Assembly (NCBI RefSeq): GCF_037023755.1
Contig: NZ_CP146100.1
Location: 6,416,501-6,480,500 of the forward strand
DNA: 64,000 bases
Direction: 5' to 3'
Origin: Saccharopolyspora sp. SCSIO 74807
GTDB lineage: Bacteria; Actinomycetota; Actinomycetes; Mycobacteriales; Pseudonocardiaceae
A program made the translations under genes and the position numbers. A model generated the notes under the pieces. The model did no database searches. It was not told the DNA's origin and worked only from the letters and a program-made list of their open reading frames with translations. Below are positions 22,686 through 43,013 of this stretch, in pieces. Within the stretch, counting starts at the first letter, position 1. Every line of letters starts with the position of its first letter.

Positions 22686-22721
22686 TCACGACCGGCGCTG
22701 ATCACGACCGGCGCTGATCAC
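22682..22721. repeat. 16-bp tandem repeat between convergent stops
   Basis: The unit CTGATCACGACCGGCG occurs twice in full and half a third time. It spans the thioesterase stop codon and the pdtaR stop codon. Confidence 0.8.
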
Positions 22722-23356: not shown

Positions 23357-23476
23357 GGTCCAGTGCGTTGGTCACCGGAAAGTTCAGCTTACCGGCCACA
23401 CCCGAAGGCCGAGATGACCAGGGAGGGTGACCATGCCGACACCGGTTCGACCATCCGCCCGGCCCGACCTGCGTGA

Positions 23477-26525: not shown

Positions 26526-26599
26526 GCCCCCGTAGCCCAACCGGCAGAGGCGGCGGACTCAAAATCCGTACAGTGTCCGTTCGAATCGGACCGGGGGCA
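26526..26599 (+). tRNA. tRNA-Leu (CAA), attachment site
   Basis: A complete cloverleaf is visible: acceptor GCCCCCG (26526-26532) paired with CGGGGGC (26592-26598), discriminator A at 26599, anticodon loop CTCAAAA (26558-26564) with anticodon CAA, and T-arm GTCCG-TTCGAAT-CGGAC (26575-26591). The CCA end is not encoded. The variable loop is only five bases (ACAGT), whereas most leucine tRNAs have a long variable arm. Its 3' half is the attL copy of the integrated element. Confidence 0.93.
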
Positions 26600-26600
26600 C
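26556..26600 (+). repeat. attL: 45-bp direct repeat, left copy
   Basis: These 45 bases (from GACTCAAAATCCGT in the anticodon arm to the base after the discriminator) recur without mismatch at 38721-38765. The copy next to int completes the tRNA gene, so it is the attL half. Confidence 0.93.
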
Positions 26601-26656
26601 CCCGCCTGAACAGGCGTTACAACCGAACACAGCGATCATGGAACTGATCCGTGGGC

Positions 26657-26688
26657 ATGGCCTTGGGCACGAGTATACTCAAGGCCAT
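26657..26688 (+). promoter_or_regulatory. Inverted repeat over the int promoter and start codon
   Basis: ATGGCCTTG (26657-26665) and CAAGGCCAT (26680-26688) form a perfect 9-bp inverted repeat around a TATACT -10-like box (26674-26679). The right arm overlaps the int start codon. This looks like an operator that could shut off integrase expression. Confidence 0.6.
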
Positions 26689-27949
26689 GAGTGCTGCTCG
26701 CCCGAACTCGCGGCCCAAGGGCAACATCGAGGAGCGCGGCGGCGCGCTTCGCGTACGGCTATACGCCGGGACCGACCCCGTCACCGGTCGACAGAGCTAC
26801 CTCCGCGCCACCATCCCCGGCACGAACAAGGCCGCCTGGGATAAGGCAGACGCGAAGCTCGCCGAGTTCCGCACGCAAGTGGCCAAGCAGCGGTCGGCGC
26901 AGTCCTCGGTGAAGCTCAGTTACGCGCTCGATGAGTGGCTGCGGACGACAGAGCTTGCTGAGAGCACACGGCACACGTACGAGGGCTACGTCTCGCGCAC
27001 GATCGAACCGGCACTCGGCGGCGTCGCGGTGAACAAGCTGACCGCCCGAATGCTGGAAACCTTCTACACGGAGTTGCGCCGCTGCCGTGCCCGCTGCAAC
27101 GGCAAGCCCAGCATCGAGAAGCACGCCAAAGCAGACGAGCACGACTGCGCGGAAGCAGGCTGCAAACCGCACTCGTGCAAGCCGATGGGCAACTCCACCG
27201 TTCGCCAGATTCACGCCATCCTCAGCGGCACGCTCGACGCCGCCGAACGCTGGGACTGGATCAGCTCCAACCCGGCACGGGTCGCACGCAAGCCGAAGCA
27301 GAAACGACCTGAACCCGACCCGCCCACTCCGGCCGAAGCCGCACGGCTCTCGGAAAGGGCGTTCGAGATGGACGAGGACTGGGGAACGCTGGTGTGGCTG
27401 GCCATGACGACCGGGATGCGCCGCGGCGAACTCGTCGGACTCCGCTTCTCACGAGTCGACTTGGACGAAGAGGTGATCGACCTCCGCCGCAACTGGGTCC
27501 GCGGTGTCGAGAAGGGCACCAAAACTCACCAGAACCGCCGCATAGCCCTCGACTCCGAAACCGTGACGCTGCTCAAGGAACACAAGGAGCGAGTGCGCGA
27601 GCGCGTCGAGCGGATCGGCGCCAGCTTCACGGAAGACCTGTTCGTCTTCGGCGGCAGGAAGACCCCGGATCACTCCGAGCCCTACTCCCCCAACGCCATC
27701 ACCCAGCGGTACAAGGACATGGCGACCCGGCTCGGCATCTCCACTCACCTCCACTCGCTGCGCCACTACTCCGCCACCGAACTACTCACCGCCGGAGTCG
27801 ACCTCCCCACCGTCTCCGGCCGCCTCGGCCACGGCGGCGGAGGCGCAACCACACTCCGCGTCTATGCGGCGTGGGTAGCCGCATCCGACCGGAAGGCAGC
27901 CGAAATCCTCGGAAGCAGGATGCCCAAGCGAAACAAGCCTGCCGAGTAA
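26687..27949 (+). CDS. int: Tyrosine integrase of the AICE
   Basis: 420 residues. An N-terminal AP2-like arm-binding region (GALRVRLYAGTDPVTGRQ), a SAM-like core-binding domain with the DEWLRTTELAESTRHTYEGYV helix, and a catalytic domain: Arg in TTGMRRGELVGL near 245, His-Leu-Arg-His in LHSLRHYSATELL near 355, GHGG near 382 and the nucleophile Tyr in LRVYAAW near 392. A Cys/His-rich insertion (about 128-165) may bind zinc; it is common in actinobacterial integrases. ATG 26687 is chosen because a -10-like box lies eight bases upstream, which suggests a leaderless or short-leader mRNA; ATG 26651 is an alternative. It inserts and excises the element at tRNA-Leu. Confidence 0.95.
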   Translation: MSAARPNSRPKGNIEERGGALRVRLYAGTDPVTGRQSYLRATIPGTNKAAWDKADAKLAEFRTQVAKQRSAQSSVKLSYALDEWLRTTELAESTRHTYEGYVSRTIEPALGGVAVNKLTARMLETFYTELRRCRARCNGKPSIEKHAKADEHDCAEAGCKPHSCKPMGNSTVRQIHAILSGTLDAAERWDWISSNPARVARKPKQKRPEPDPPTPAEAARLSERAFEMDEDWGTLVWLAMTTGMRRGELVGLRFSRVDLDEEVIDLRRNWVRGVEKGTKTHQNRRIALDSETVTLLKEHKERVRERVERIGASFTEDLFVFGGRKTPDHSEPYSPNAITQRYKDMATRLGISTHLHSLRHYSATELLTAGVDLPTVSGRLGHGGGGATTLRVYAAWVAASDRKAAEILGSRMPKRNKPAE

Positions 27950-28094
27950 CCCAGACTTGCACCTGCGCCAACCGGACGCATGTCATCACGCTTCTAGCGG
28001 CTTGACGCGAACAGCTTTCGATAGATGCCGCACACCTGTCAGTCCCCGCCGGTACCGTCCGCAACGAGTGATCACATAAACAAGGATGGAACCA

Positions 28095-28763
28095 ATGGCG
28101 CGAAAACCAATCGTCATCGGGGAACGATTTTTTGCACTCAAGAAGGACGCCGAGCAAGAGTGCCGTTCAATACTCTACAGATATCGGCCGGGCGATACTG
28201 TATCAACCCCCGAAGACGAGAGGCTCCTTCTTGATGTATTGAATATGCATCCCGACAGGGATCGAAAAGTGGGGCACGGCATCGATCACTTTGAGGTTCG
28301 GGAAAATCCGCAGATCCAACGCAAGCGAACGATATACCTGGTCCGCAGCGACGGGTCGGAAACGGATTTTTCTTACCTGAAGTGTTTAACTCCCCCAAGT
28401 CAAGCAAAGTTGGCGAAAGCGACCCTCCGCAGGGCTGTCGTTCCACAGATCAACGAGTTCATCCGCGAAACATACCAAAGATGTGGGGCGCTAACCTGTG
28501 CAATCACCGGGGAAGCGCTCGATCGCAGCCAAGCACACGTTGACCACTACAATCCGACTTTCGACATGCTAAGCAAAGCGTTTGCCGATTCAGAAGGGGG
28601 CTGGGATGCCATATCCACAAAAAGTTCCGATGGCATGATCGGAAAAGAGATCGCTGATCCTGACCAGGCGGGCCGCTGGGATAGGTATCATCGCGACTTT
28701 TCTTCGCTGCGGATCGTATCAGTACAATCCAATCTATCGCTGCTTCGTCAGAGCGCACGGTAA
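28095..28763 (+). CDS. DCL/DUF3223 protein with HNH-like C-terminus
   Basis: 222 residues. The N-terminal half matches the DCL (DUF3223) family: DAEQECRSILYRYRPGDTVSTPEDERLLLDVLNMHP, then HFEVRENPQIQRKRTIYLVRSDGSETDFSY, described here by its ends and key residues. The second half has a C-x-x-TGE turn followed by HVDHYNPTF, resembling an HNH nuclease core but lacking a clear second Cys pair. DCL proteins in plants act in rRNA maturation; bacterial ones are uncharacterised. ATG 28095 has AAGGA eight bases upstream. Codon use is visibly less GC-rich than its neighbours, which marks it as acquired cargo. Confidence 0.7.
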   Translation: MARKPIVIGERFFALKKDAEQECRSILYRYRPGDTVSTPEDERLLLDVLNMHPDRDRKVGHGIDHFEVRENPQIQRKRTIYLVRSDGSETDFSYLKCLTPPSQAKLAKATLRRAVVPQINEFIRETYQRCGALTCAITGEALDRSQAHVDHYNPTFDMLSKAFADSEGGWDAISTKSSDGMIGKEIADPDQAGRWDRYHRDFSSLRIVSVQSNLSLLRQSAR

Positions 28764-28799
28764 GCAATCTATTTGACGGCGAACGTAGCCACGACACTT

Positions 28800-28832
28800 C
28801 GGATGGCCGGTGCTCCACGCACCGGCCATCCG
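28800..28832. terminator. Hairpin between DCL and Nudix genes
   Basis: A perfect 13-bp stem (CGGATGGCCGGTG and its complement) with a 7-base loop starts 37 bases after the DCL stop and ends 12 bases before the Nudix start. It probably terminates the upstream gene. Confidence 0.75.
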
Positions 28833-28844
28833 TAGTCTTCCCCC

Positions 28845-29423
28845 GTGAGCACTGAGCGCGGAGCATGGCAGGTGTACGGGGAGCGGACGATCTACGACAA
28901 CCGGTATGTCCGGTTGGGGCTGGTGGATGTCGAGCCGCCGGACGGGCGGCGGTTCGAGCATCACGTGGTCCACCTGGACCGGGTCGCGGTGGCGCTGATC
29001 GTCAACGAGCGCGACGAAGTGCTGATGCTATGGCGCTACCGGTTCGCCACAGATGAGTGGGGTTATGAGCTGTTGGGCGGCATCGTTGACGGGGACGAGG
29101 AGTCCACGGCGACGGCACTGCGTGAGACAAGCGAGGAGAGCGGTTGGGAACCGCTCGGCGAGCCGGAGCACCTGGTGAGCTTCGAGCCGATTCCGGGCAT
29201 GGTCACGGCTCAGTTCGATGTCTACCTGTGGCGCGGCGCGAAGCACATCGGCGACCCGACCGACGAAGAGGAAGCCGGAACCATCGAGTGGGTTCCGCTG
29301 GACCGGGTCATCGAGCTGACGCAGCAGCGCAAGCTGCTCGGGTCCGGGACGTTGGTCGCGTTGCTGTACTACCTGGCCTCACGTGGAGCCGCCGGGAAGG
29401 ATCAAGCCGCTGAGTCGCCGTAG
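28845..29423 (+). CDS. Nudix hydrolase (candidate plasmid immunity factor)
   Basis: 192 residues. The Nudix box is complete at about residues 79-101: GG(x5)E, then REx2-SEESGW, with key residues Gly79, Glu87, Arg95, Glu96 and the EE pair. ADP-ribose-pyrophosphatase-like features (YELLGGIVDGDE; VSFEPIPGMVTAQFDVYL) surround it. In pSAM2 the Pif protein is a Nudix protein that blocks redundant transfer between element-bearing cells, and AICEs often carry one; the same role here is inference. Its end overlaps the convergent regulator gene by 45 bp. Confidence 0.85.
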   Translation: MSTERGAWQVYGERTIYDNRYVRLGLVDVEPPDGRRFEHHVVHLDRVAVALIVNERDEVLMLWRYRFATDEWGYELLGGIVDGDEESTATALRETSEESGWEPLGEPEHLVSFEPIPGMVTAQFDVYLWRGAKHIGDPTDEEEAGTIEWVPLDRVIELTQQRKLLGSGTLVALLYYLASRGAAGKDQAAESP

Positions 29424-30506
29424 CTGGCGGTCGGACTTGATCTGCGAGGCCAGGCGTCGCGCTTGCCGGGAGTGTTCGAGCGCGGCGTCTCGGTCTCCGG
29501 CCGCGGCGTGGGCGTACGCGAGGTCCACGAGGATTCCAGTGCGGGCGCGGGTGAATGCTTCGGGTAGCCGTGGCAGTGCGTCGGTGAGTTGGTCGATCGC
29601 TTCCGGCTCGCCGAGCTTGCTCAATGCGTTGCCGCGCCACCGGTCCAGGTGTGCGCCAGCGAGGAATAGGAACGGCAGCGCGGGGTCTGTCGCTTCGGCG
29701 GGCAAGAGCTGGTCGGCTTCGTCGAACGCGCGCAGCGCCCCGTCTCGGTGCCCGAGAGCGGAGAGTCCTTCCCCATGCGCGGCCGCGAGCCAAGCGCGCA
29801 GCAAGGGCGGTGCAGCTTCCGATGCCAGCTCGCGGGCGGCGGCGAGTTGTTCGGCGGCTGCGGCCGTCTCGCCGATGTCGATGAGCACGAATGCCTGTTC
29901 TGCGGTCGCGTGTGCGACCAGTGGAGCGGATAGGGCTTCGCGGGCGGCGGTTTTGGCGCGTTCGTAGTGCTCCCACGCCTGCCCGTGCGCGCTGCGGTCG
30001 AGTGCTTCCCATCCGGCCAATGTGGACGCTTCGGTGAGCACGCCCGCGAGCGTTTCGCGGTGCCCGGTCAGGGTGCTGTACCCGAGCAGGCTTCCCACAT
30101 GGTCGATGTTGCTCCGGAGCTGGTCGAGCATGGTGACGCCGCCGAAACGGCGATCGATTTGCCGGGCGTGGTCGACCTGCTGGCGAAAGACCTCCACCAT
30201 CTCCGGATCGACCCGACGCGCGATGGCGATCCGGTTGCGCAGCTCGGCTAGATCTTCGTCGTCCGGCTCGGACGGGAAGCCCATCTCCTCGTCGGTGCGC
30301 CCGTAGACCTCGCGGAACAGGCGCCGGTACGGCTCGCTGACCGACTCGTGCCCGTTCTCCCAACGGGAGAGCTTCGTTTTCAGGCTGGTCGGCGTCATGA
30401 TCGGAATCCTGAGCCGTTCCCCGCGCTGACCGAGCATCCGAATCACGTCATCGGCCGAGTAGCCGAGCTGTCTGCGCACCGCTTGCAAGCGGGTTTTCGG
30501 ACTCAT
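29379..30506 (-). CDS. XRE-type regulator with TPR-like C-terminus (A)
   Basis: 375 residues. The N-terminus is a helix-turn-helix (TRLQAVRRQLGYSADDVI, then LKTKLSRWENGHESV, residues about 5-55). A helical TPR-like domain follows (about 130-375) with QIDRRFGGVTMLDQL, ASTLAGWEALDRSAHGQAW and VAHATAEQAFVLIDIGE. The C-terminal domain is clearly homologous to the regulator at 35819-36961. Such proteins often repress transfer genes and may respond to a ligand or peptide. GTTAA-rich repeats lie 36-67 bases upstream of its start. Confidence 0.82.
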   Translation of the reverse strand: MSPKTRLQAVRRQLGYSADDVIRMLGQRGERLRIPIMTPTSLKTKLSRWENGHESVSEPYRRLFREVYGRTDEEMGFPSEPDDEDLAELRNRIAIARRVDPEMVEVFRQQVDHARQIDRRFGGVTMLDQLRSNIDHVGSLLGYSTLTGHRETLAGVLTEASTLAGWEALDRSAHGQAWEHYERAKTAAREALSAPLVAHATAEQAFVLIDIGETAAAAEQLAAARELASEAAPPLLRAWLAAAHGEGLSALGHRDGALRAFDEADQLLPAEATDPALPFLFLAGAHLDRWRGNALSKLGEPEAIDQLTDALPRLPEAFTRARTGILVDLAYAHAAAGDRDAALEHSRQARRLASQIKSDRQLRRLSGLILPGGST

Positions 30507-30541
30507 CGCACCATCCCCCGATATGCGACCTGACCTGCGAA

Positions 30542-30573
30542 GTTAATTGCGGTTAATGGGCTCGTGGTTAACC
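30542..30573 (-). promoter_or_regulatory. GTTAA repeats upstream of regulator A
   Basis: GTTAAT at 30542, GTTAAT at 30552 and the palindrome GGTTAACC at 30566-30573 lie 36-67 bases upstream of the regulator start. They are AT-rich for this DNA and are likely promoter or operator sequence, perhaps autoregulatory. Confidence 0.4.
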
Positions 30574-30677
30574 GGCGCCATCTGTGAAAACGCGCTCGAC
30601 TGCCGTTTCTTGGAGGCATGGACAGCGCACACGGAACGGCCCACCGGGGCAGGCCGGTTGATCGCCGAAGCGGTCGG

Positions 30678-31061
30678 CTATCCGCCTTGCCCGCTGCCAC
30701 GGCCGGTCTCGGCGGGGAGTCGCGAGTTCAGCTCGTCGAGTTTTTCGGTGATCTGGCGAAGGTGCTGCTCGATGGCGGTCAGCCGGCTGGGTACGTCGTC
30801 TTTGCTGGACAGTGGTTCGCCGGCCGCGGGTGGTGTGCGTCGGTCCAGGACTGCGGAGAGGTGTTCGGCGTGCCAGCCCAGCGCCAGCGAGAGGGCTTCG
30901 AGCGTGCGCGCGCTCCGCCGCCGCTCAACGGTGTTGTGCTGCAACTCGCGCACGATCGCTTGCGACACGTGCGAGCGCTCGGCCAGCTCGCGTTGCCGCA
31001 TACCGAGTTCGCTCACGCGCTGGTTGATCGCGTGAGCGACCGCAGTCCAGTCCTCCGTCAC
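30678..31061 (-). CDS. Small XRE-family regulator divergent from xis
   Basis: 127 residues. The helix-turn-helix is clear: QRVSELGMRQRELAERSHVS, then QAIVRELQH (residues about 14-45), followed by LEALSLALGWHAEHL. A C-terminal helix (RLTAIEQHLRQITEKLDELN) is likely a coiled coil for dimerisation. GTG 31061 is chosen because GGAGG lies five bases upstream; longer starts exist. It is divergent from the excisionase operon with a 16-bp palindrome between them, so it is the likely repressor of the transfer/excision operon. Confidence 0.82.
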   Translation of the reverse strand: MTEDWTAVAHAINQRVSELGMRQRELAERSHVSQAIVRELQHNTVERRRSARTLEALSLALGWHAEHLSAVLDRRTPPAAGEPLSSKDDVPSRLTAIEQHLRQITEKLDELNSRLPAETGRGSGQGG

Positions 31062-31157
31062 GTATTCCTCCGCGTTCCGCCTCAGCGCCGAGATTAGCGC
31101 GGAGTTCATTCGACTCAGCAACCCCACGCGAAAGACGAGGCACTTCGCGCTCACTGA

Positions 31158-31173
31158 AAGCTGATATCAGCTT
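31158..31173. promoter_or_regulatory. 16-bp palindromic operator between regulator and xis
   Basis: AAGCTGATATCAGCTT is a perfect palindrome in the 161-bp divergent region. It lies 50 bases before the excisionase start and 97 bases before the regulator start, a typical operator position. Confidence 0.65.
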
Positions 31174-31222
31174 CTTGTTCCGCCGAAATCCTTGCCTTTT
31201 GCGATTCTCTGGAGATCCCGCA

Positions 31223-31504
31223 ATGGAACAGAACTCCGAGAACGCCGGGCGACCGACGTTCTACACAGTTCGGGAAGCGGCGCGGATCATGCGCTGCAAC
31301 CCCTCGACGCTGTACCGGGCGATCCGGGAGAACGCCTTCCCCGCCGTCCGGGTCCGCACCCGCTACGTCGTCCCGAGCGTCGCCGTGGACCAGCTCGCCG
31401 CCGAGGCGAGCGAGTCCGGGGCTCGCGTGGACGTGGCTCAGATGGCCGCCGAACGCCGGACCGCTCGCGACGTGGCGCGGCTGAACGGGGGTGCGCCGTG
31501 GTGA
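31223..31504 (+). CDS. xis: Excisionase (MerR-like HTH)
   Basis: 93 residues. It has the short winged-helix of the excisionase/BldC type: FYTVREAARIMRCNPSTLYRAIRENAFPAVRVR (residues about 13-45), with recognition helix PSTLYRAIRE. Excisionases bend att DNA so that Int can excise the element. ATG 31223 has GGAG eight bases upstream. It is the first gene of a tightly overlapped operon: its TGA overlaps the whiB start. Confidence 0.85.
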   Translation: MEQNSENAGRPTFYTVREAARIMRCNPSTLYRAIRENAFPAVRVRTRYVVPSVAVDQLAAEASESGARVDVAQMAAERRTARDVARLNGGAPW

Positions 31505-31839
31505 CCCCCGAGGAGAACGAACGGCTCGCCCGGTTGGACCTGCTGCGGTCCCTGCCGCTGGGCGCACTCACCGACGTGGTCACGCAGAACGGCCGCTGCC
31601 TGTGGGAGTTCACCGAGGGCGATCCGCCTGACGTGTCCGGCAGTGCCGAACCGGATCGGGAGTTGGCCGCGCGGCTGTGCGCGGGCTGCCCGGTTCGTGA
31701 CGAGTGCTTGGAACTGGAATTTCGCTCCGCAGGGGCCGAAACGGTCGGCGTGTGGGGCGCACTGTCCGAAGAGGACCGCCGTGCGCTCTACCCGATGTGG
31801 CGGGCTCGCCGCGAGGCCGAAAGGGGTGACTGGGAATGA
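31501..31839 (+). CDS. WhiB-family iron-sulfur protein
   Basis: 112 residues. Four conserved cysteines occur as C33 (GRCLWEF) and the trio CAGCPVRDEC near 60-69, the [4Fe-4S] cluster pattern of WhiB. GVWGALSEEDRRAL is the family G(V/I)WGG turn with Ala in place of the last Gly, and a basic tail (MWRARREAER) follows. WhiB proteins usually control transcription by binding the main sigma factor; element-borne copies may tune transfer. GTG 31501 overlaps the xis stop. Confidence 0.88.
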   Translation: MTPEENERLARLDLLRSLPLGALTDVVTQNGRCLWEFTEGDPPDVSGSAEPDRELAARLCAGCPVRDECLELEFRSAGAETVGVWGALSEEDRRALYPMWRARREAERGDWE

Positions 31840-32165
31840 CGCTGCAACTGACTCCGGTCCAAGTGCTCGCGGTGGTCGGTGCGCTGCTCGTCCTGGTCGG
31901 TGTGTGGCGTGCGAGCGCCCGTGCCTCGCGGAAGGCCGCGGAAACCGCACGCACCGGGGCGCGGTTGGTGTCTCTCACCGGGCGGGTTGTGGCGACGGCA
32001 GGGGCGATCGTGCTCGTGCAGTGGTTAGTGATCATGCACTCGGGCGGAGGGACGGCCCTGTTCACGGTGCTGGGGATTCCGGCGGTGCTGGCGTCCTACA
32101 CGCTCACCAAGGCACTGACGGTCACGACGCCGGAGCCTCCGCACCACCGGAGCCGGAAGCGATGA
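31836..32165 (+). CDS. Small Spd-like membrane protein
   Basis: 109 residues with two or three hydrophobic helices (about 10-24, 52-68 and 74-92) and a basic, histidine-rich tail. It overlaps whiB and the next gene by ATGA. Position and topology match the Spd (plasmid spread) proteins that accompany TraB in actinomycete elements; there is no sequence motif to prove it. Confidence 0.65.
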   Translation: MTLQLTPVQVLAVVGALLVLVGVWRASARASRKAAETARTGARLVSLTGRVVATAGAIVLVQWLVIMHSGGGTALFTVLGIPAVLASYTLTKALTVTTPEPPHHRSRKR

Positions 32166-32875
32166 GCGGCCAAGCATCGCGGGGCGGGCGGCACGCGCCG
32201 CCCGCCCCCTCCGGGGCCGAACCGGTCGAGCACGTGCGGCGGCAGGTGGACCGGTTGTGCTGGACGGGAATCCTGCTCGGGCTCGCGTTCACCATGACCA
32301 ACGTCCAGAGCTTCGCGGCCGGAGACGCCGCGGTGTGGTCGCTGCGGTGGTCGGCAGCGTGGCTGCTCGATCCGATGGTGTCGCTGGTCCTGCTGGCGAT
32401 CCTGCGCGCCGAGCAGATCACCGCCCGCTACGGCGTGCACACCGGCGGATGGGTCCGCGGCGCGAAGTGGTTCACGCTCGCGGCCACCTACGTCATGAAC
32501 ACGTGGGAGGCGTTCGCGGACTCCTCCGCCGCGATGGTCGTGCTGCATTCTGTGCCGCCCCTGGTGGTGTTCGTGGCCGCCGAGGCGGTCACCGACCTAC
32601 GCGACAAGCTCGGCGAAGTCGCCGCACTCGCCGCAATGAACGCACCGAAATCGCCCAAGACACCGGAACGGCCGGAACCCGTGCAACGCGCCGAGCAGGC
32701 CGCACGGCGCACTTCGGCCGACGAGTACCTGAACCGCGCGCGCCAGGCGTGGCAGCCCGACGTGACCGTGACTCCCGCCTGGATTCGCGACGTCACCGGC
32801 TGCTCGCGCGGCCTGTCCTCCCGACTGGCCGCCGCGCTCGCGGAGGAAGTGAACACCGAACGGGGCAACTCATGA
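32162..32875 (+). CDS. DUF2637 (SpdB-like) membrane protein
   Basis: 237 residues. Three or four transmembrane helices span about 33-135, with the family segments LLDPMVSLVLLAILRAEQI and WFTLAATYVMNTWEAFADSS. A soluble helical C-terminal region (DEYLNRARQAWQPDVTVTPAWI) may be a winged-helix-like tail. DUF2637/Spd proteins are thought to form the channel or septal contact used by TraB during intramycelial spread. The start and stop overlap the neighbouring genes. Confidence 0.82.
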   Translation: MSGQASRGGRHAPPAPSGAEPVEHVRRQVDRLCWTGILLGLAFTMTNVQSFAAGDAAVWSLRWSAAWLLDPMVSLVLLAILRAEQITARYGVHTGGWVRGAKWFTLAATYVMNTWEAFADSSAAMVVLHSVPPLVVFVAAEAVTDLRDKLGEVAALAAMNAPKSPKTPERPEPVQRAEQAARRTSADEYLNRARQAWQPDVTVTPAWIRDVTGCSRGLSSRLAAALAEEVNTERGNS

Positions 32876-34977
32876 ACCCATCGGACGAGACGCATCGCGA
32901 TCCCGTGAACGAGGTGGAACGGAAGGTGTTCGACGCCGAGATAGTGGACGAACCGCGCCGTGAACGGGCACGACGGTTCGCGAAGTGGTGGCTGAACTCT
33001 CCGCGCGTGCCCTCCCGGTTGAAGTCCTGGCCGCTGCTGCGGCAAGCACTCCTGGACGCCGCCGCATGGGTGCTGCGTTCACCGTGGACATTCCTGCGAG
33101 CCGTGGTCCGCGGCGCGGTGTTGGTCGTGCGCCAGTGGCGGCGGTGGGTGCGCGTGCACGACTACCGCGAGGCCGCCGAGGAGTCCGAGAAGCTGGCGGA
33201 CAAGTTCCTGGAAATCCGCTCGCTGACGCTGTTCCGCTGGAAGGTCACCGGAAGTGTCGCACTCGCCGCAGTCGGCGCAGGCGTGGTTCTCAGTGTCCTG
33301 TTCGGACTGTCGGCACTGTGGGCAGTGTTGGCTGCTGTCGCTGTGGTATTCGCGGTGACCGGTCGCCGCAAGGAAGGCGCACCGGGCCGGAAGCCGGTTC
33401 TCGCGGGTCCGCGTTCGCTGACGTGGACGATGGACCCGCAAGTCCTGGTCGACGCCTTCCGGGACGCGAAGCTGATCGGCAAGGACGAATCGCTGCGCCT
33501 GGTCGAACGAGCGGCGCGTTCCGGCGACGGTTGGGCGATCACCGTGGACCTGCCAGCCACTCGCAAAGCCGCGGACGTGGTCAAGAACAGGGAAGCACTC
33601 GCCTCCGCACTCGCCGTGGACGAAGTGCAGCTCATCGCCGAACGAGTCCGCGGCAAAGGCGGGCACGCAGGACGGGTGTTCCTGTGGGTTGCCGACGACG
33701 ACCCCTACTCCGGACCGCCGCCGAAGTGCCCGCTGCTCGAAGTGGACTCGTGGGATGCGTGGCGACCGGTCCCGTTCGGCCGCGACGCGCGAAACCGGCG
33801 GATAGACCTGCCGTTGGTGTGGACATCCCTGGTCGTCGGTGCGATTCCACGGCAAGGCAAGACGTTCGCTACCCGACTCGCGGTCGCCGGCTTGGTCCTC
33901 GACCCGTACGTGCGGCTGTACGTCTTCGACGGCAAAGGCGGAAAGGACTGGGAAGCCGCAGCGGAAGTCGCGCACCGCTTCGTGTGCGGCGACGAGGACC
34001 GACACGTAGCGGCGGTCCGAGACTTCCTCATCGAGCTGGTCGGCGAAGTGCAGCAACGCTACACGCGCATGTCCAAACTGGACGACGACCTGTGTTCCGA
34101 ATCGAAGATCACGCGGACGATCTCGCGGGACGGCGACCTCGGGATGCCCGTCACCGCAGTGGTCTTGGACGAGGTGCAAGTCTTCCTCGATGACCCGTCG
34201 CCCGAGGAAGTCGGCGGCAAGAAGACGACTCGCGGCGCCTACATCGCGGACCTGCTGGCCTACCTCGCCCGGAAGGGTCCAGCCGCCGGGATCGTCGTCA
34301 TCCTGGCTACTCAGCGGCCGGACTCCAACACGATTCCGTCCCGGCTCCGCTCGGTGCTCGGCTCGCGCTTCGCCCTGCGGGTGATGGACTGGCGAGACTC
34401 GAACATCGTGCTCGGCGAACAGATGAACACCCGTGGCTTTGACGCCTCCACACTGCTCCCGAGCCACAAAGGGGTAGGCATTCTGCGGCCGGACGGCGAG
34501 GCGGACGGCACCGGCGACGTACTCGCCATGACCGTGCGGACGTACTACCTGCCCAACCCCGAATGGCGAACCATCTGCAACCGAGGCCGGAAGCTGCGCG
34601 AGGCAGCGGGCACCCTCACCGGCCACGCAGCAGGCGACACCACGAGTGGCGCGGTCGACTCCTCTGCGGTCGCGCACGCGCTCGGCGCGGTTCCCGCCGA
34701 ACCGGCCGAGCTGCCCGACCCGCTCGGCGCGATCCTCGACTACCTCGGCGACGACTTGGAGACCCGCGAGTTCGTACCGACCGCCGAACTCACCGACGCA
34801 CTCGGCATGGAACCAACCGCATTCGGCCGCCGGATGGGCGATCTCGGATGCCAGCCACGCCGAGGACGACTCGTCGGTGACGACGGCACCGCCCGGCAGG
34901 TTCGCGGCTACTACAGCGCCGACCTCCGAGCCGTCATCGAGGAACACCGAACGGGCACCGACGAGGGCGGGACATAG
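32872..34977 (+). CDS. traB: TraB/FtsK-type DNA translocase
   Basis: 701 residues. Basic N-terminal region, two transmembrane helices at about 122-163, then an FtsK/SpoIIIE motor: Walker A GAIPRQGKTFATRLAVAG near 323, Walker B AVVLDEVQVFLDD near 430, and ILATQRPDSNTIPSRLRS. The C-terminus (about 625-690) is a winged-helix domain (REFVPTAELTDALGMEPTAF) like the TRS-recognising domain of TraB proteins. One such hexameric motor moves double-stranded element DNA to the recipient. The gene ends the xis-whiB-spd operon with ATGA overlaps. Candidate recognition octamers straddle its stop codon. Confidence 0.93.
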   Translation: MNPSDETHRDPVNEVERKVFDAEIVDEPRRERARRFAKWWLNSPRVPSRLKSWPLLRQALLDAAAWVLRSPWTFLRAVVRGAVLVVRQWRRWVRVHDYREAAEESEKLADKFLEIRSLTLFRWKVTGSVALAAVGAGVVLSVLFGLSALWAVLAAVAVVFAVTGRRKEGAPGRKPVLAGPRSLTWTMDPQVLVDAFRDAKLIGKDESLRLVERAARSGDGWAITVDLPATRKAADVVKNREALASALAVDEVQLIAERVRGKGGHAGRVFLWVADDDPYSGPPPKCPLLEVDSWDAWRPVPFGRDARNRRIDLPLVWTSLVVGAIPRQGKTFATRLAVAGLVLDPYVRLYVFDGKGGKDWEAAAEVAHRFVCGDEDRHVAAVRDFLIELVGEVQQRYTRMSKLDDDLCSESKITRTISRDGDLGMPVTAVVLDEVQVFLDDPSPEEVGGKKTTRGAYIADLLAYLARKGPAAGIVVILATQRPDSNTIPSRLRSVLGSRFALRVMDWRDSNIVLGEQMNTRGFDASTLLPSHKGVGILRPDGEADGTGDVLAMTVRTYYLPNPEWRTICNRGRKLREAAGTLTGHAAGDTTSGAVDSSAVAHALGAVPAEPAELPDPLGAILDYLGDDLETREFVPTAELTDALGMEPTAFGRRMGDLGCQPRRGRLVGDDGTARQVRGYYSADLRAVIEEHRTGTDEGGT

Positions 34978-35027
34978 CCGTCACGCACCTGTCCACGGCG
35001 GGACAACCCGTCACGGGACGCGGGACA
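34967..35027 (+). repeat. Three GCGGGACA octamers: candidate clt/TRS transfer site
   Basis: GCGGGACA occurs at 34967, 34998 and 35020, with the related CGGGACG at 35014 and GGGACG at 35073. TraB proteins of actinomycete plasmids bind clusters of 8-bp TRS repeats near traB. The position fits, but binding is inference. Confidence 0.55.
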
Positions 35028-35066
35028 GGCAAGGACCGGCGCTGACGTGGTCAAACGACGAAGAAG

Positions 35067-35110
35067 ACGGGTGGGACGGGTCCAAGCGACCTGTCCCACC
35101 CGTCCGTTTT
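35067..35110. terminator. Intrinsic terminator downstream of traB
   Basis: A 15-bp stem (ACGGGTGGGACGGGT against ACCTGTCCCACCCGT, one G-T pair) with a 7-base loop is followed by CCGTTTT on the plus strand. It closes the transfer operon and could also serve the convergent small genes. Confidence 0.8.
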
Positions 35111-35160
35111 CACCGCCCAGCGCCCCGCTCCGAGGCAGCACGCTGAGCCTGTCCCGGCGT

Positions 35161-35349
35161 CTACAACTTCCGCAGTCCGTCCAGTACCCATCGGAGCAAA
35201 GCGGGCGACGGACGGCCGTCTACAGCCTTCGGCGGTTCGGGTTCCGGGCAGGGGCGAACGAAGGTGATCGTCGGAAGGTCCGCGTTCAGATCGCCGCACC
35301 ACGCAGTGACGTACCCGCCGCGCTCGCGCGAGTGCTGGCCGCCGGACAT
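35161..35349 (-). CDS. Small hypothetical protein (62 aa)
   Basis: 62 residues beginning MSGGQHSRERGGYVTAW, with a proline/glutamate-rich middle (FVRPCPEPEPPK) and a helical end (PALLRWVLDGLRKL). The function is not recognised. Its ATG comes two bases after the stop of the next minus-strand gene, which supports it as the second gene of a small operon. It converges with traB across a terminator. Confidence 0.55.
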   Translation of the reverse strand: MSGGQHSRERGGYVTAWCGDLNADLPTITFVRPCPEPEPPKAVDGRPSPALLRWVLDGLRKL

Positions 35350-35351
35350 GC

Positions 35352-35552
35352 TCAACCACTCGGCTGCTCGATCACGGTGCACCGGTCCGCCCGCGACAGC
35401 AGAACCGCCGCAAGGCGTTCCAACGCTTTGGCAAGCTCCCGATGCGCTTCACCGTCGAGCCGGTCTTCCGGAATCCGGTGCGCGGCGTCATCGAGAGCCC
35501 ACTGCGCTTGCCGGAGCAACACAGCCACCGCGGCAGCGTCATCCGCGCCCAT
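35352..35552 (-). CDS. Small helical hypothetical protein (66 aa)
   Basis: 66 residues, almost entirely helical (AVAVLLRQAQWALDDAAHRI and AHRELAKALERLAAVLLSRA). The start ATG 35552 has an excellent AGGAGGTGG site six bases upstream. Small proteins of this kind are common beside tra genes in AICEs; the function is unknown. Confidence 0.65.
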   Translation of the reverse strand: MGADDAAAVAVLLRQAQWALDDAAHRIPEDRLDGEAHRELAKALERLAAVLLSRADRCTVIEQPSG

Positions 35553-35690
35553 ACGGCTCCACCTCCTGGAAGACAAACGGTCACTGGGTGCCCAGCTATG
35601 GATCACGGTCGGAGCCGACGTTCGGGGGACCGCCGACCCCGACCGTGACCGGGCGCCTGGCGACGGCTGAGAGGCGGAACGCAGTCACCA

Positions 35691-35753
35691 GGCGGTTCGG
35701 ATGACCGCCCGCAAGCGGTCCATGTCAAACTGAAACCAGCTTGCCGAACCGCC
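35691..35753. promoter_or_regulatory. Spaced inverted repeat upstream of regulator B
   Basis: GGCGGTTCGG (35691-35700) and its exact complement CCGAACCGCC (35744-35753) flank 43 bases in the divergent region between the small minus-strand genes and regulator B. This may be an operator pair for looping or a leader hairpin. Confidence 0.4.
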
Positions 35754-35818
35754 GACATCAGCGGAACGACACAAGCACGACATGAACACGACTTCCGCAC
35801 GGGGGACGGGAGGACACA

Positions 35819-36961
35819 GTGCGCCCCTACCGCACACTGCTCGAACAGAAGATCAGAGAACGCCGGATGACCTTGGAGGAGTTCGCGGCCTACGCCGAGG
35901 GGTTCGCCCGGGAACACGGCGAGCCAGGAACCCTCAGCCTCCGTCACCTGCAACGCCTGGTCGCAGGCAAAGGCCCGAAAGGCCAACCCCTCGGCCCGAT
36001 CCGCCCAGCGACCGCGCGCCTCCTGGAACGCATCTTCGAGACGGACAGCAGCGACCTCCTGTCCTCCCCCATGCAGGCCGTCGCCCCACCCGATGACGAC
36101 GCCGCCGAACTCCGGGAACGAATCCAGAAGGCAAAGCGTGTCGATGCAGGCATGTTGCAGAGCCTCCGCGGCCAACTCAACTCTATACGTCGCACCGACC
36201 GCCAATTCGGCGCGATCGTCACGCACACCGAAGTCTTAGCGAGGATATCTCAGGTCCGCGACCTATTCACGTATAGCCTCACCGTCACCACTCGCCGAGA
36301 ACTCGCCATTCTCTTATCAGAGATGCACACTCTAGCAGGATGGCAGGCGCTCGACACTGGCCACCGCTCCGTTTCATGGCGCCACTACGAAGAAGCCAAA
36401 CAAGCAGCCCTAGAAACCGAGGAAATTTCCTACCATGTTCACGCTACAGCTGAACAAGCTTTCACCTTGATCGACCTCAACTACACCACCACAGCGGTTC
36501 ATCTGCTCGAATCGACACTCCGAGCAGCCGAACGCCGCTGCCCACAACTCCTACGCGCTTGGCTTGTTGCCGCCCACGGAGAGACATTAGCAGCCGATCG
36601 ACAACCGGACCAATCTCGAAAGCAGTTTGACGAAGCCGAACATCAACTCCCACGAGAAAGCGTTCCAAAAGAGGGACCGTACATAGTTCTCGATAGGAAT
36701 CACCTTACACGCTGGCGTGGCCACTCGGTATCCCAATCAGACCGTGTGGGCTCTTTCAGCTTGCTAACCAATGCACTGAAGGGCCTGGATCCGACATTCA
36801 TCCGCGCAGAGTCCGCCCTTAGAGTTGACCTAGCAAGCGCACTAATTGCACTGCACGAGATCGATAAAGCCTCTGGGCAGCTCGACAAGGCAAGCAAGAT
36901 GGCTTACAACTTGGGGTCCATTAGGCAACTAAGACGAATTAGCGCGCTGCGGACTGTTTAG
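35819..36961 (+). CDS. Regulator with TPR-like C-terminus (B)
   Basis: 380 residues. The N-terminus has a helix-turn-helix-like stretch (LLEQKIRERRMTLEEFAAYAEG, then LSLRHLQRLVAG). The C-terminal domain parallels regulator A: RRTDRQFGAIVTHTEVL matches QIDRRFGGVTMLDQL; MHTLAGWQALDTGHRSVSW matches ASTLAGWEALDRSAHGQAW; VHATAEQAFTLIDLNYT matches VAHATAEQAFVLIDIGE. The two are paralogues. From about 36200 the gene becomes less GC-rich with more A/T-ending codons, so the C-terminal half looks recently acquired or less ameliorated. Confidence 0.78.
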   Translation: MRPYRTLLEQKIRERRMTLEEFAAYAEGFAREHGEPGTLSLRHLQRLVAGKGPKGQPLGPIRPATARLLERIFETDSSDLLSSPMQAVAPPDDDAAELRERIQKAKRVDAGMLQSLRGQLNSIRRTDRQFGAIVTHTEVLARISQVRDLFTYSLTVTTRRELAILLSEMHTLAGWQALDTGHRSVSWRHYEEAKQAALETEEISYHVHATAEQAFTLIDLNYTTTAVHLLESTLRAAERRCPQLLRAWLVAAHGETLAADRQPDQSRKQFDEAEHQLPRESVPKEGPYIVLDRNHLTRWRGHSVSQSDRVGSFSLLTNALKGLDPTFIRAESALRVDLASALIALHEIDKASGQLDKASKMAYNLGSIRQLRRISALRTV

Positions 36962-37039
36962 GTACTACTTGCCGAAGCAAATACTAAAGGTTGGCACCGC
37001 GCCGGTGATGGCCCACAGGACTAATGCGATCATGGCATA

Positions 37040-38530
37040 GTGCGTGAGTTCAGGTTGAGACGATTGCGTCGGCAGATGCGCTGGCTTCCCCGTGTTTTCT
37101 GGCTACGTCGTTTAGGCGTGGCACTCGTGGTTGTTGGCTTGGCATGCGGGCTACCCGTGGATTGGCTTGCACTATTGCGGTCAACAGAACATGCGCTCTT
37201 GCGCATAGGATTCCCTGGGGCGCTGGCAGGAACAGGATTGGCACTGCTTGTTATAGCCACCATAGCCAACAAGGCTTTGCGGCCTAATAGGAATCCCACT
37301 AACTCGCAGCCGGAAGTGCGCCCCCTTCGATGGTGGTGGGTACTGCTTGTGGCCTTGAGCATTACGGCGGTCAGTGGCCTCGTGCTGCTCAAGCTGCTCG
37401 ACGTCGCCGCCCAGGCTCCGCCCGCAGAGATCGCCAAGATTCGAATCGAGGCGGTTCGGACTACATTGACTTTGGCTGCGGGTCTGGTCGGTGTTGTTGC
37501 ACTGGTGTTTACCTCTCGTCGGCAGTGGCTCGCCGAGCATTCGCAGCGCCACACCGAGAGCGATGCGGCTGAGCAACGAGCGACCGATCTTTATAGCGCG
37601 GCAGCAGCGCAATTAGATTCGGACAAAGCTCCTGTTCGCTTGGCAGGACTTTACACACTGGAAAGAATTGGACAGGTAAACAAAAGCCAAAGGCAGACAG
37701 TAATTAACCTACTGTGTGCTTACCTTAGAGTTCATTTTACTCATCCGAATGAACCAAACGACGGCGCGCTAAGCAAGCCCGCGGATGCATCCGCACAGGA
37801 ACCCTTTTTGATCGATTTGGCGCCCACCCTAGCAGCAGCTGCAGGACTATCGCTAGATGGAGTTGAACGCCAGGAAGGGGAACTCGAAGTCCGCCGAGCC
37901 GCTCAAAATTTGATCTGCAGTCATCTTCGTCCAGATTTCTGGGACAAAAATGGCCGCCCTGGCGGCAGAGATTTTTGGGGAGATCTGAGAATCGACCTGT
38001 CTAGTGCAGTTCTTCACGACTGGGACGCATCGAGATGCTCGATACATGGTAACTTCTCGAAAGCTCAGTTCCATGGTGAAACAAGATTCTCCCGCGCACA
38101 TGTATCCTCCTCGAACTTTTCCGGCGCGAAATTTTTCGGCGAAGTCAGGTTTGGCGACCGTTTTCATAAGGGTGGCCAATTCGAAGGGATAGTGAGCTTC
38201 ATGAGAGCTCGATTTTATGATGTTGCTTCCTTCGAGGGATTAACCATCGAGGAGTCGGCGAACTTCCTAGAGGCAGAATTTGAACGAAGCGTCAAATTTG
38301 ACGAAAAGTTACACGCGAAAAAGGTAGACCTATACGGTGCACGAGTTCGCAGAGACCCCAAAGGAAAACTACCAGAGCCCACCTGGCCTAGCGGTTGGAA
38401 GCTTACAGGACCGGTGGAGTCCCCTGAGGGGAAAGCTGGCCGCTGGGATGAGTTTGTTCCTCAAGCTTTTCCTGGCCCGTTGGTCTGGGATCCGCTTTCC
38501 TCAGATTCCAGCGGAGAACGCCGGGAATAG
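37040..38530 (+). CDS. Membrane protein with pentapeptide-like repeats (cargo)
   Basis: 496 residues. Four hydrophobic helices lie at about 22-45, 55-75, 95-118 and 135-155. The C-terminal half has pentapeptide-style repeats with a central Phe or Leu: FSKAQFHGETRFSRAHV, SNFSGAKFFGEVRFGD, FEGIVSFMRARFYDVASFEG and ANFLEAEFERSVKFDEKL. The fold is a right-handed beta helix; such tails can be binding or toxin/immunity surfaces. The codon use is AT-richer than the core genes, and it is the last gene before attR, so it is cargo. The function is unknown. The GTG start lacks a strong ribosome site. Confidence 0.72.
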   Translation: MREFRLRRLRRQMRWLPRVFWLRRLGVALVVVGLACGLPVDWLALLRSTEHALLRIGFPGALAGTGLALLVIATIANKALRPNRNPTNSQPEVRPLRWWWVLLVALSITAVSGLVLLKLLDVAAQAPPAEIAKIRIEAVRTTLTLAAGLVGVVALVFTSRRQWLAEHSQRHTESDAAEQRATDLYSAAAAQLDSDKAPVRLAGLYTLERIGQVNKSQRQTVINLLCAYLRVHFTHPNEPNDGALSKPADASAQEPFLIDLAPTLAAAAGLSLDGVERQEGELEVRRAAQNLICSHLRPDFWDKNGRPGGRDFWGDLRIDLSSAVLHDWDASRCSIHGNFSKAQFHGETRFSRAHVSSSNFSGAKFFGEVRFGDRFHKGGQFEGIVSFMRARFYDVASFEGLTIEESANFLEAEFERSVKFDEKLHAKKVDLYGARVRRDPKGKLPEPTWPSGWKLTGPVESPEGKAGRWDEFVPQAFPGPLVWDPLSSDSSGERRE

Positions 38531-38720
38531 GAAAACCTACGAATAAAGGGCACCTGCGGCTTGAGGAGATCGGCACGCCACGCACGCGGAACGCGCGTGT
38601 GGGTACCCGTGGGCATGGACATGGGCATGAACGAACGCCACCGATGCCCTCAAAACGACGCTTCCACCACCGATCCGGTTCTTCTGCCGCAGGACAACAC
38701 CAGAGCCACACCGCTCGGCC

Positions 38721-38765
38721 GACTCAAAATCCGTACAGTGTCCGTTCGAATCGGACCGGGGGCAC
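38721..38765 (+). repeat. attR: 45-bp direct repeat, right copy
   Basis: Exact copy of 26556-26600 (tRNA-Leu 3' half). The sequence to its left no longer matches the tRNA (C replaces G just before it), so no functional tRNA is encoded here. It ends the element about 190 bases after the pentapeptide gene. Confidence 0.93.
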
Positions 38766-38862
38766 ATACAGCATCGTCACGACACCGTTCTGGTCGTGAA
38801 CTGCGCATATCCGCACAGGTCAGCATCGTTCGTCGTCGGCGCGGCCGTGCCGGTGGTACGCG

Positions 38863-39588
38863 ATGATCGCCGATCGAGACACGGTCATCCGGGCCCTGAC
38901 GGGGATCATCGGAACCGTCATCGCGCTGACCTTTCTGTTCGGGTTCGGCAACGTCTTCAGCCTCGGACTGCGACTCGGGGTGCCGGTCTACGTGGCCCCA
39001 CTGGTCGCACCAGCCGTCGATCTCTCCGTCCTCGGCTTGTTGATCGGCACCCGCTACCTCGCGCTACACGGAGCGTCTCGGGAGCAACTGCGCCCTGCCC
39101 GTCGGCTGCTGTTGGGCGCCAGTGAGCACCCGAAGGTGGAGGTCGGGGGAGCTTACTCGAACACAAAGGACCAGGTCAGCGCCCTGGAAATACTGCGGAC
39201 GAAGCTGCCGGACCTGGCTACACCGCCCCAGTCGACACCGAAGCGGGCAAAGCCCGGCCGCAATCGGCGCCTCCCCGACGCGCAGGTGCAGCAACTGATC
39301 GAGGGCTACAAGTCCGGCGCAACCGTCTACGAACTGGGTGATCAATTCGGCATCGAGCGCCGCACAGTAAGCGCGATCCTGCACCGCCACGGGGTTCCGA
39401 TGCGTCGCCACGGCCTGTCCGAGGAGCAGGTCGACAACGCCGTTCGGTTCTACAACCAGGGGTGGTCGCTGGCCCCGATCGCCGCACGCATGAACGTCGC
39501 CGCCGACACCGTCCGCCAACGCCTGCACGAACGCGGCGTCGCCATCCGTGACACCCAGGGACAGCCTCGGGCCGGTGACACCCGATGA
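38863..39588 (+). CDS. Membrane-fragment/HTH hybrid protein
   Basis: 241 residues. Residues 1-70 hold two hydrophobic helices ([40 protein letters not shown]) like the first part of a DUF2637/SpdB protein. Residues about 110-230 hold two resolvase-type helix-turn-helix units: [20 protein letters not shown] followed by [12 protein letters not shown], and [20 protein letters not shown] followed by [12 protein letters not shown]. It overlaps the next gene by ATGA. It may be a natural membrane-linked regulator or a fusion made by deletion between an spd gene and a recombinase-type gene. Confidence 0.65.
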
Positions 39589-40385
39589 CCAGCACGCCAT
39601 CCCCAACAAGCCCCACCCCCGATCGATCACTGCACCTGCAATGCGCGTGCACGCTCCTGGTAGCCGTCGGCGCGGCCTACGTCTCCTACCGGCACGGCCG
39701 CGAGTTCGCCCTACGGTTCGGCGCCGACGAGACCACCGCAACTCTCTGGCCGCTCATCGTTGATGGCTTGTTGACGATGGCGACCATCGAGCTGTGGAAA
39801 ACCGGTCACCGTCATCGCGCCACCGGGCAATGGAAAGCATGGTTGTCCTTCGTTCTCGGCATCGGACTCTCCCTATGCGCCAACATCGCTTCCGCACCCG
39901 AGCTGAACTCCTTCTCCATCGCCGTCGCCGCCTGCCCACCCCTAGCACTGCTGCTATCGGTCGAACTACTCAACCAGGCTCTCAAGCGGCGCCACGCGGA
40001 GACAGCGAGCGGCATCGGTCACCAGTCAGACGAGAACGCATCACCAGAGCCGCACTCACCGGACATGGGTGAAACCCGCTCGTTGCCAGAGGAGTCCGGG
40101 GCGAGTGCCGAGGTGCCAGCGCTGCGCACGGTCGTGAACAACGCGCCTGGTCACAGCACCAACAGCCACGATGCTGACTCAGGATTTCCGCACGATGAGG
40201 ATGCTGATCCGCTGCGCGAAGAAGCCCACAGGCTCGACGTCGAACACTGGAACCTGCACCAGCGCCCGATCTCAGCCGACACCCTCCGCCGCAAGCTCAA
40301 TATCGGCTCGAAACGAGCCCGCACCCTTACCCACCACATCCGCCAACACCGCCAACCAACTGCAGCGCTGCCAGCGGCGCGATGA
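39585..40385 (+). CDS. DUF2637 (SpdB-like) membrane protein, second copy
   Basis: 266 residues. Four hydrophobic segments (about 20-38, 50-66, 86-104 and 110-126) carry the family features [18 protein letters not shown] and [21 protein letters not shown] disordered acidic linker leads to a C-terminal winged-helix-like end ([20 protein letters not shown]), which suggests DNA or partner binding. Being a second DUF2637 gene beyond attR, it indicates a decayed or neighbouring mobile element. Confidence 0.8.
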
Positions 40386-40492
40386 GCACGTCCGCATCGG
40401 TTCTGGAGGCCGACACCACGGCGCAGTCCGACCAGATGTGTGCGTCGACGATCCCATTGCAAGTTCGCGACGGCGGAGGACCGCGGCCACAT

Positions 40493-40751
40493 GCGGTCGT
40501 CGCATCCTCCTCATGAGGGTCAACGCCACAGTACGAATCCCCCGCGGTTTCGCGGCGCAGTTCGTCGTTGCGATCCTCGCCGGTCCTGGAGGGCCGACGC
40601 CACGGTCGAGGGTTTCCACGTCGTCGTCGCGGCGCTTCGAGTTGCGATCCTCGCCGGTCCTAGAGGGCCGACGCCATTTTCGCTCGGGCGCACGATCTCG
40701 GTCTGCCCGCCGTCGTTGCGATCCTCGCCGGCCCTGGAGGATGAGAAACCG
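40493..40751 (-). CRISPR. Orphan, short CRISPR-like array
   Basis: Four repeats spaced exactly 74 bp apart: a degenerate one ending at 40529, two good ones at 40567-40603 and 40641-40677 (two differences between them), and one at 40715-40751 that diverges in its last third. The repeat is 37 bp, beginning GTTGCGATCCTCGCCGG; read on the minus strand it ends in GAGGATCGCAAC, like CRISPR repeat 3' handles. The three intervening spacers are each 37 bp and unrelated to one another. A further weak repeat-like stretch ends at 40419. There are no cas genes in the window. The array lies between the DUF2637 gene and a STAND gene. Confidence 0.65.
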
Positions 40752-40821
40752 CCTACGGGGACCAGTACCCTGCGGTAATCTTGCTGTCACGATCAGTATC
40801 GGACCGGGGAAAGGCACGCCA

Positions 40822-42912: not shown

Positions 42913-43013
42913 CTCAGCACAGGAGCCACCGAAAGCAATACGTATGCCGGTCGCTACCTTCAGCGTGCGAGCTTGATCAGGTCGTTTTGGAAGTATTGGT
43001 TGATGGAGAGTAG

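Follow-up and report, generated by a model that had tools for sequence, protein, structure and literature searches.

An integrated element in tRNA-Leu(CAA) of Saccharopolyspora sp. SCSIO 74807 with AICE-like genes and no recognisable replication initiator

What kind of element carries the integrase and the DNA pump of an actinomycete integrative and conjugative element (AICE) when no replication initiator (Rep) can be recognised in it? This question is raised by a 64,000-nucleotide stretch of Saccharopolyspora sp. SCSIO 74807 (hereafter the window; NCBI RefSeq assembly GCF_037023755.1, contig NZ_CP146100.1, positions 6,416,501 to 6,480,500), in which an element is integrated in a tRNA-Leu(CAA) gene. 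The definition of an AICE requires an integrase, a replication initiator and TraB (PMC3218068, PMC9513070). The reading that we favour, with a probability of about two in three, is that the element belongs to a family in the Pseudonocardiaceae whose members behave as AICEs do but have no recognisable replication initiator, and that its segment of integrase gene (int) and attachment site (att) has been exchanged.

Boundaries, empty sites and gene content

The tRNA-Leu(CAA) gene is the single tRNA of the window (ARAGORN; Rfam tRNA, 56.7 bits). A preliminary description of this DNA had proposed a 12.2-kb element bounded by perfect 45-bp repeats of that tRNA, with int just inside one end and a TraB operon in the middle, and all of this was borne out: the two repeats are exact (Table 1), int is located just within the end next to the tRNA, and the middle is taken up by an FtsK/TraB-type transfer operon. 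The element measures 12,165 bp from repeat to repeat, and the repeats, when extended, are identical in 49 of 50 bases from 26551 and 38716. A chance repeat was ruled out, as the 32-bp repeat core has two exact matches in the window and none in 100 shuffles. Neither a third att copy nor a tandem element was found downstream within the window, and the host genome (G000; 6.69 Mb, one contig) holds one other match to the tRNA sequence, 82% identical, at 2533817. The element thus has two features expected of an AICE, a site-specific integrase and att repeats, the latter typically placed at the 3′ end of a tRNA gene.

The tRNA region was matched in all six genomes of the genus that were searched. 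In each of two congeners (G003, G005), an intact tRNA-Leu is directly joined to a homologue of window 38766 onward, without the element (gtacagcatcgtcac vs atacagcatcgtcac). This junction is the one expected of attB, so the empty site that the preliminary description had proposed to look for in related genomes does occur. The region from 38.8 kb begins with the flank of this empty junction, which speaks against a second element there. The same tRNA is occupied differently in the other congeners: G001, which belongs to the same species as the host, has no such element there and a different sequence downstream of the tRNA; G002 has pieces of an integrase and of a NUDIX gene, likely the scar of an element; and in G004, two repeat copies enclose a 14-kb unit with integrase, DUF3987 and Prim-Pol genes. 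The tRNA-Leu(CAA) site is a hotspot. At the G004 site (L012/L013), the AICE-like Prim-Pol/DUF3987 element is followed by a remnant of a window-type integrase.

The element encodes an FtsK/SpoIIIE-type Tra/TraB protein, as indicated by matches to PF01580 (25.5 bits, cut-off 24, scored on a longer frame, 32257–34974), to a PHROG FtsK family (2e-27) and, by profile comparison, to a solved FtsK (3e-6). An excisionase or recombination directionality factor gene is also present as judged by sequence, with TIGR01764 and PF12728 above cut-off. Relaxase and VirB4/VirD4-type machinery had no Pfam match among the 10 + 5 window open reading frames (ORFs) scanned, smaller ORFs lying outside the scan. The element resembles AICEs of the pSAM2, pSE211 and SLP1 type in its tRNA att site, tyrosine integrase, excisionase-like helix-turn-helix (HTH) protein and single FtsK/TraB-like pump. 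Its gene company is AICE-like as well, because NUDIX, NsdA-like XRE and WhiB genes have been reported in AICEs (PMC3218068). The gene order is different: att-int-nudix-xis-ftsK-att is found in place of att-tra-rep-int-att, with int at the tRNA side, reading inward and apart from xis, which lies within the ftsK operon.

Replication initiators and a heptamer array in the element and its relatives

No gene for RepSA, RepAM (DUF3631) or Prim-Pol was found within the element among the window ORFs scanned, which sets it apart from AICEs. The element lies at 6.44–6.46 Mb of the host genome, and the nearest DUF3631 or Prim-Pol matches are at least 1.4 Mb away (DUF3631 at 2.13 and 1.57 Mb; Prim-Pol at 5.02, 2.13 and 1.39 Mb). 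RepSA (PF20199) is present in 23 of 31 genomes, with no match in G000, G003 or G004, and, judged against the ftsK matches listed, every one of its matches is either on a different contig or more than 0.7 Mb from ftsK. As a positive case, Prim-Pol in the G004 element was recognised by the same Pfam scan, which shows that a genuine example is picked up by this approach. The designation ‘complete AICE’ in the preliminary description thus stands for the integrase, the excisionase-like protein, the FtsK/TraB-like pump and the att sites, and fails for the replication gene and the gene order.

To see the element among its kin, we compared 47 ftsK loci. They were drawn from 40 neighbourhoods, picked from the best matches listed with a single one taken per genome (281 of the 297 genomes of the family have a match), and from the window, integrase-relative loci and copies from the host's own genome and congeners, after eight loci had been dropped (four duplicates, four without ftsK). 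By recombinase, 16 loci are of the tyrosine-integrase type and 28 of the serine type, and three have neither enzyme. All but one of the 16 tyrosine-integrase elements have the plan int-(cargo)-NUDIX-NsdA-HTH-xis-whiB-tm-spd-ftsK in common; in L093 and L100, int is partly cut by the end of the stretch. No stop interrupts the aligned parts of int, ftsK, NsdA1, xis and spd in any of the 13 elements compared, that of the window among them. A tRNA was seen beside int in 12 of 15 elements: Leu(CAA) in five, Met(CAT) in six and Leu(TAG) in one. A leucine tRNA had been described as a less familiar AICE target, a view that does not hold, given that tRNA-Leu(CAA) stands beside int in five of 11 integrase-relative loci and that eight serine-recombinase AICEs are reported in Mycobacterium tRNA-Leu (PMC3218068). 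By their description, the Mycobacterium elements have the leucine tRNA target of the window element but a serine instead of a tyrosine recombinase.

The lack of a recognisable Rep extends to those of these relatives that were tested. In the other tyrosine-integrase elements tested, Rep matches fall on other contigs or more than 450 kb away; for L020 and L022, where contig numbers could not be matched, the positions of the Rep matches differ from those of the element by at least 70 kb. These tests spanned 15 tyrosine-integrase genomes (RepSA, Prim-Pol in 14, DUF3631 in 12), with L023 and L097 left out; several of the genomes are drafts, so that contig edges are a caveat. A second exact att copy was seen in five of 12 elements searched: the window element, G1met (the relative in tRNA-Met of G001; 17.25 kb), G3b (a further relative beside tRNA-Met; 12.46 kb), L070 (17.4 kb) and L071 (17.2 kb). 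A mismatch-tolerant rescan of nine elements again gave second copies in L070 and L071 only; for L065, L020, L022 and L023, the stretch examined may stop before the right border.

Directly 3′ of ftsK lie six ACCYGTC heptamers within 118 bp, starting at 34987, 35006, 35066 (minus strand), 35075 (minus strand), 35089 and 35098. By shuffling, 0.24 heptamers are expected per 300 bp, and elsewhere in the element, none of 198 steps of 300 bp reaches six. At least four heptamers within 300 bp occur in 14 of the 16 tyrosine-integrase elements (four to eight each) and in one of the three loci without a recombinase, against zero or one in all 28 serine-recombinase loci. Because the motif was chosen on these same elements, which are themselves related by descent, the counts are not independent trials. 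In plasmid pWTY27, the cis-acting locus of transfer (clt) lies at the 3′ end of traA and has inverted repeats as well as repeats of 7 bp, to which TraA binds; recognition of 8-bp motifs by the C-terminal winged helix of TraB is cited in the same paper (PMC3583192). The window array is alike in its place at the 3′ end of a tra gene and in its combination of inverted repeats with 7-bp repeats; the motifs differ, TGACACC and CCCGCCC in pWTY27 versus ACCYGTC here. We consider the array a candidate clt. Its palindrome was also examined as a plain terminator, and the scan showed no terminator-like site; the stem scores as strong at the RNA level (z −6.5), and the palindrome may play a part in transcription.

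Table 1 Features of the element. Positions are those of the window; G1met and G3b are relatives beside tRNA-Met.
Feature	Position	Strand	Evidence and remarks
tRNA-Leu(CAA)	26526–26601	+	Intact; target gene, 3′ part is attL
attL	26556–26600	+	Exact 45-bp repeat, start in anticodon arm
Tyrosine integrase, 420 aa from ATG 26687	26687–27949	+	PF00589 5e-19, PF14659; reads away from tRNA; relatives align from residue 1
Cargo: DUF3223 protein	28086–28763	+	PADLOC HamC2 match; no tblastn match in G1met or G3b
NUDIX hydrolase	28845–29423	+	Conserved backbone begins here
NsdA-family tetratricopeptide repeat (TPR) regulator 1	29379–30506	−	NF053720 7e-47
Small HTH regulator, 127 aa	30678–31061	−	Weak HTH matches in Pfam
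Excisionase-like HTH_17 protein, 93 aa	31223–31504	+	PF12728, TIGR01764 over cut-off; PHROG excisionase
WhiB-like protein, 112 aa	31501–31839	+	PF02467 1e-10
Small hydrophobic protein, probably membrane, 109 aa	31836–32165	+	By sequence; conserved in relatives; no Pfam match over cut-off
237-aa protein, probably membrane	32162–32875	+	Long helices in low-confidence model; no Pfam match
FtsK/TraB-like DNA translocase, 701 aa	32872–34977	+	Walker A GAIPRQGKT; putative C-terminal winged-helix-like region
Candidate clt	34987–35104		Six ACCYGTC heptamers and 17-bp palindrome, 35066–35104
Small reading frame	35161–35382	−	Similar frames in two relatives; no Pfam match
Second small reading frame	35352–35606	−	Weak evidence for being a gene; no Pfam match
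NsdA-family protein 2	35819–36961	+	Identity to G1met drops from 94% to about 70% near 36054
Cargo: hydrophobic N-terminal part and pentapeptide repeats	37040–38530	+	PF13576 4.5e-12
attR	38721–38765	+	Exact 45-bp repeat; element end

The PADLOC scan covered four element proteins, and the three besides the DUF3223 protein matched no model. Downstream of the element, the region from 38.8 kb contains a DUF2637 gene, and window 40171–49446 encodes a BTAD/NB-ARC regulator along with two proteins of NB-ARC/TPR type. A 36-bp unit recurs three times at a period of 74 (gaps of 38 bp) in window 40567–40750, its third copy being degenerate; in layout, these copies resemble clustered regularly interspaced short palindromic repeats. 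The 28 serine-recombinase loci, including L068 and one in the host genome (G000:C1:5310490), carry a related whiB-tm-spd-ftsK module, and tRNA-Leu(GAG) lies in the fetched stretch of 19 of them; this module may be fixed or domesticated.

Probable integrase exchange and the relative in tRNA-Met

The same-species strain G001 carries the same backbone inserted in tRNA-Met. Between window 28854 and 36054, the two backbones, compared in 36 steps of 200 bp, are 92–98% identical in all but three steps, with a lowest value of 85%; beyond 36054, identity is about 70%. The ftsK genes are 97% and the excisionase-like proteins 99% identical, whereas the integrases agree in only 76% of DNA and 73% of protein positions. 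Between G1met and G3b, the integrases are 93% and the ftsK genes 82% identical, so the histories of both genes agree in that pair. Faster evolution of the integrase in place of exchange was considered and rejected, as the integrase is the more conserved gene between G1met and G3b and the less conserved one between the window element and G1met.

Phylogenetic trees conflict in the same way. In the ftsK tree, the window element and G1met are sisters (support 100/99). The integrase tree rejects a clade of these two (approximately unbiased test, p-AU 4.9e-65) and weakly rejects one of the window element, G1met and G3b (0.024). The integrases nearest to that of the window by path belong to L065, L066 and L067, all beside tRNA-Leu, and a clade of the window element with these three is rejected by the ftsK tree (8.6e-71); the window element is placed only loosely in the integrase tree. 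Taken as sequence histories, these results argue that the integrase was exchanged and the target tRNA changed. A change from tRNA-Met to tRNA-Leu in the window lineage would be the simpler direction.

How could one backbone use both targets? The tRNA-Leu and tRNA-Met genes have a common arm, GCGGACTCA(A/T)AATCCGT; the att repeats start there, and the att core is therefore largely identical. In the circular form, the parts that differ from G1met (the end of NsdA2, cargo, att, int and cargo) would be contiguous, and a single exchange would suffice. NsdA-like gene 2 looks as if it contained a recombination boundary. The N-terminal ~85 residues of its product match in many serine-type loci, and the remainder is much more variable.

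The tRNA-Met site is empty in the host, where 3150758–3151863 is joined to 3151861–3151995. The chromosomal flank is 98.7% identical between the host and G001 over 5 kb; this exceeds the identity of the backbones, which suggests that the two strains acquired their elements separately. By eye, the cargo of G1met comprises superfamily-I helicase-like and DarT-like proteins (G001, L058/L059, joined stretch 22277–26048), which possibly serve defence.

An AICE-like element may be using one backbone with different integrases, and a precedent exists. In AICE family 03 of Choufa et al., one backbone occupies different sites with different integrases, namely tRNA-Val and rlmN, and the excisionase differs too (PMC9513070). 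The window element and G1met differ from that family in that the two targets are tRNAs with nearly the same anticodon arm and in that the excisionase-like protein is kept.

A proposed mobile element without a recognisable initiator of its own

In the mechanism that we propose, the tyrosine integrase and the excisionase-like HTH protein would recombine attL with attR in the anticodon arm of tRNA-Leu, releasing a circle. The FtsK/TraB-like pump would bind the heptamer array 3′ of its own gene and move double-stranded DNA to a recipient, where the circle would integrate at tRNA-Leu. The NUDIX, WhiB, HTH and NsdA-like proteins may act in regulation or immunity. Copies could be kept up without Rep through replication by the host or a helper, or the element could be lost from one of several hyphal chromosomes. 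The tRNA-Leu target would have been gained by exchange of the int and att segment, the closest backbone relatives sitting in tRNA-Met. Tentatively, and as a possibility that we would not back at even odds, this may extend to a whole lineage across several Pseudonocardiaceae genera that transfers by an FtsK/TraB pump and a clt array without its own initiator; circles would be sent as they are, multigenomic hyphae would retain copies in their other chromosomes, and the target would be changed by swapping a cargo-attP-int-cargo segment.

Several observations weigh against this account. Mutants of pSAM2 in the initiator or the origin lose transfer (PMC3218068). The NCBI plasmid_TraB model matches the FtsK protein weakly (1e-4, 20.8 bits, cut-off 800), and two structure models were both poor (predicted local distance difference test scores, pLDDT, of 53.5 and 45.5). 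The flank in common with the empty sites is short, reaching 39100 in G003 (78% identical) and 38841 in G005 (79%), and the 334-bp flank piece (window 38767–39100) occurs at three places in G003 (G003:C1:2094046, 2115339 and 3059286); the argument therefore rests on the junction, not on a long flank. At the empty tRNA-Met site of the host, only the first 135 bp of the G001 right flank continue, the remainder matching elsewhere in G000. In L071, the array of seven heptamers lies beyond cargo inserted after ftsK, and L022 has the variant GCCGTCC in the same palindrome layout; the C-terminal region of the L022 FtsK is also altered (FGRAMADLGC versus FGR[RQ]MG[ED]LGC in most), so that these two exceptions are also instructive. 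Targets do not form clean clades on the integrase tree, which needs at least three changes, compared with four on the ftsK tree. The drop in identity inside NsdA2 is seen between G1met and G3b too; the breakpoint on the right is hence no peculiarity of the window copy. Finally, seven of 12 elements lack a second att copy within the stretch examined, mismatches allowed too, and none was seen in L066, L067 and L096 over more than 18 kb after the tRNA; not every relative is thus shown as a bounded unit.

The strongest competing explanation, which we nevertheless regard as unlikely, is a defective AICE (DAICE) that has lost Rep and is passive or moved by helpers, for example by Prim-Pol or DUF3631 genes elsewhere in the genome. 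Choufa et al. class elements without rep as DAICEs (6 of 51 traB loci; PMC9513070), and by present usage the window element would be assigned to this class, having a TraB-like gene, an integrase and direct repeats at its ends but no Rep. The host has DUF3631 (2130585) and Prim-Pol (2132057) matches that adjoin each other, and a Prim-Pol element occupies the same tRNA-Leu in G004; the second att copies missing from seven of the 12 elements, within the stretches examined, also speak for this explanation. However, the lack of Rep is common to the related elements tested, and one recent loss would not be this widespread. The absence of stops from int, xis and ftsK among the relatives is likewise unlike a DAICE, and the different occupancy of the site between strains argues against immobility.

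Rather improbable, in our estimate, is that a backbone gene without a family, such as that of the HTH protein, that of the 237-aa protein or one of the small frames, specifies a hitherto undescribed type of initiator, with the array as its origin and not as clt. In favour of this, RepA of pWTY27 had been labelled hypothetical and binds an iteron containing repeats of 7 and 8 bp (PMC3583192), and the 237-aa protein belongs to no Pfam family. Yet that protein is hydrophobic and predicted, in a poor model, to form long helices, and the remaining backbone proteins are small HTH, WhiB or NUDIX proteins. Moreover, pWTY27 also has a predicted primase/polymerase, absent from the window element, and the array adjoins ftsK just as the pWTY27 clt adjoins traA (PMC3583192). 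A domesticated island that no longer moves and whose FtsK serves the host would agree with the fixed appearance of the related serine-recombinase loci, 19 of 28 with tRNA-Leu(GAG), but is very improbable given that G001, G003 and G005 lack the element at tRNA-Leu(CAA) and that its kin are located in other tRNAs.

An AICE-like element that moves without its own recognisable initiator therefore remains our preferred reading. Integrase switching in AICEs (PMC9513070) and AICEs in tRNA-Leu (PMC3218068) are already in print; what appears to be new is a conserved Rep-less family with a clt-like array, for which a search of titles and abstracts of open-licence papers found no literature. Replication has been reported as needed for pSAM2 transfer, and a Rep gene serves as a criterion in AICE screening (PMC3218068, PMC9513070), so a Rep-less family would be filtered out or filed as defective. 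The array offers a concrete candidate clt, and a backbone that a pair of conspecific strains carry in different tRNAs provides a clean system for relating integrase exchange to target choice. If the element moves, the requirement for Rep would not be general, and such elements are being missed.

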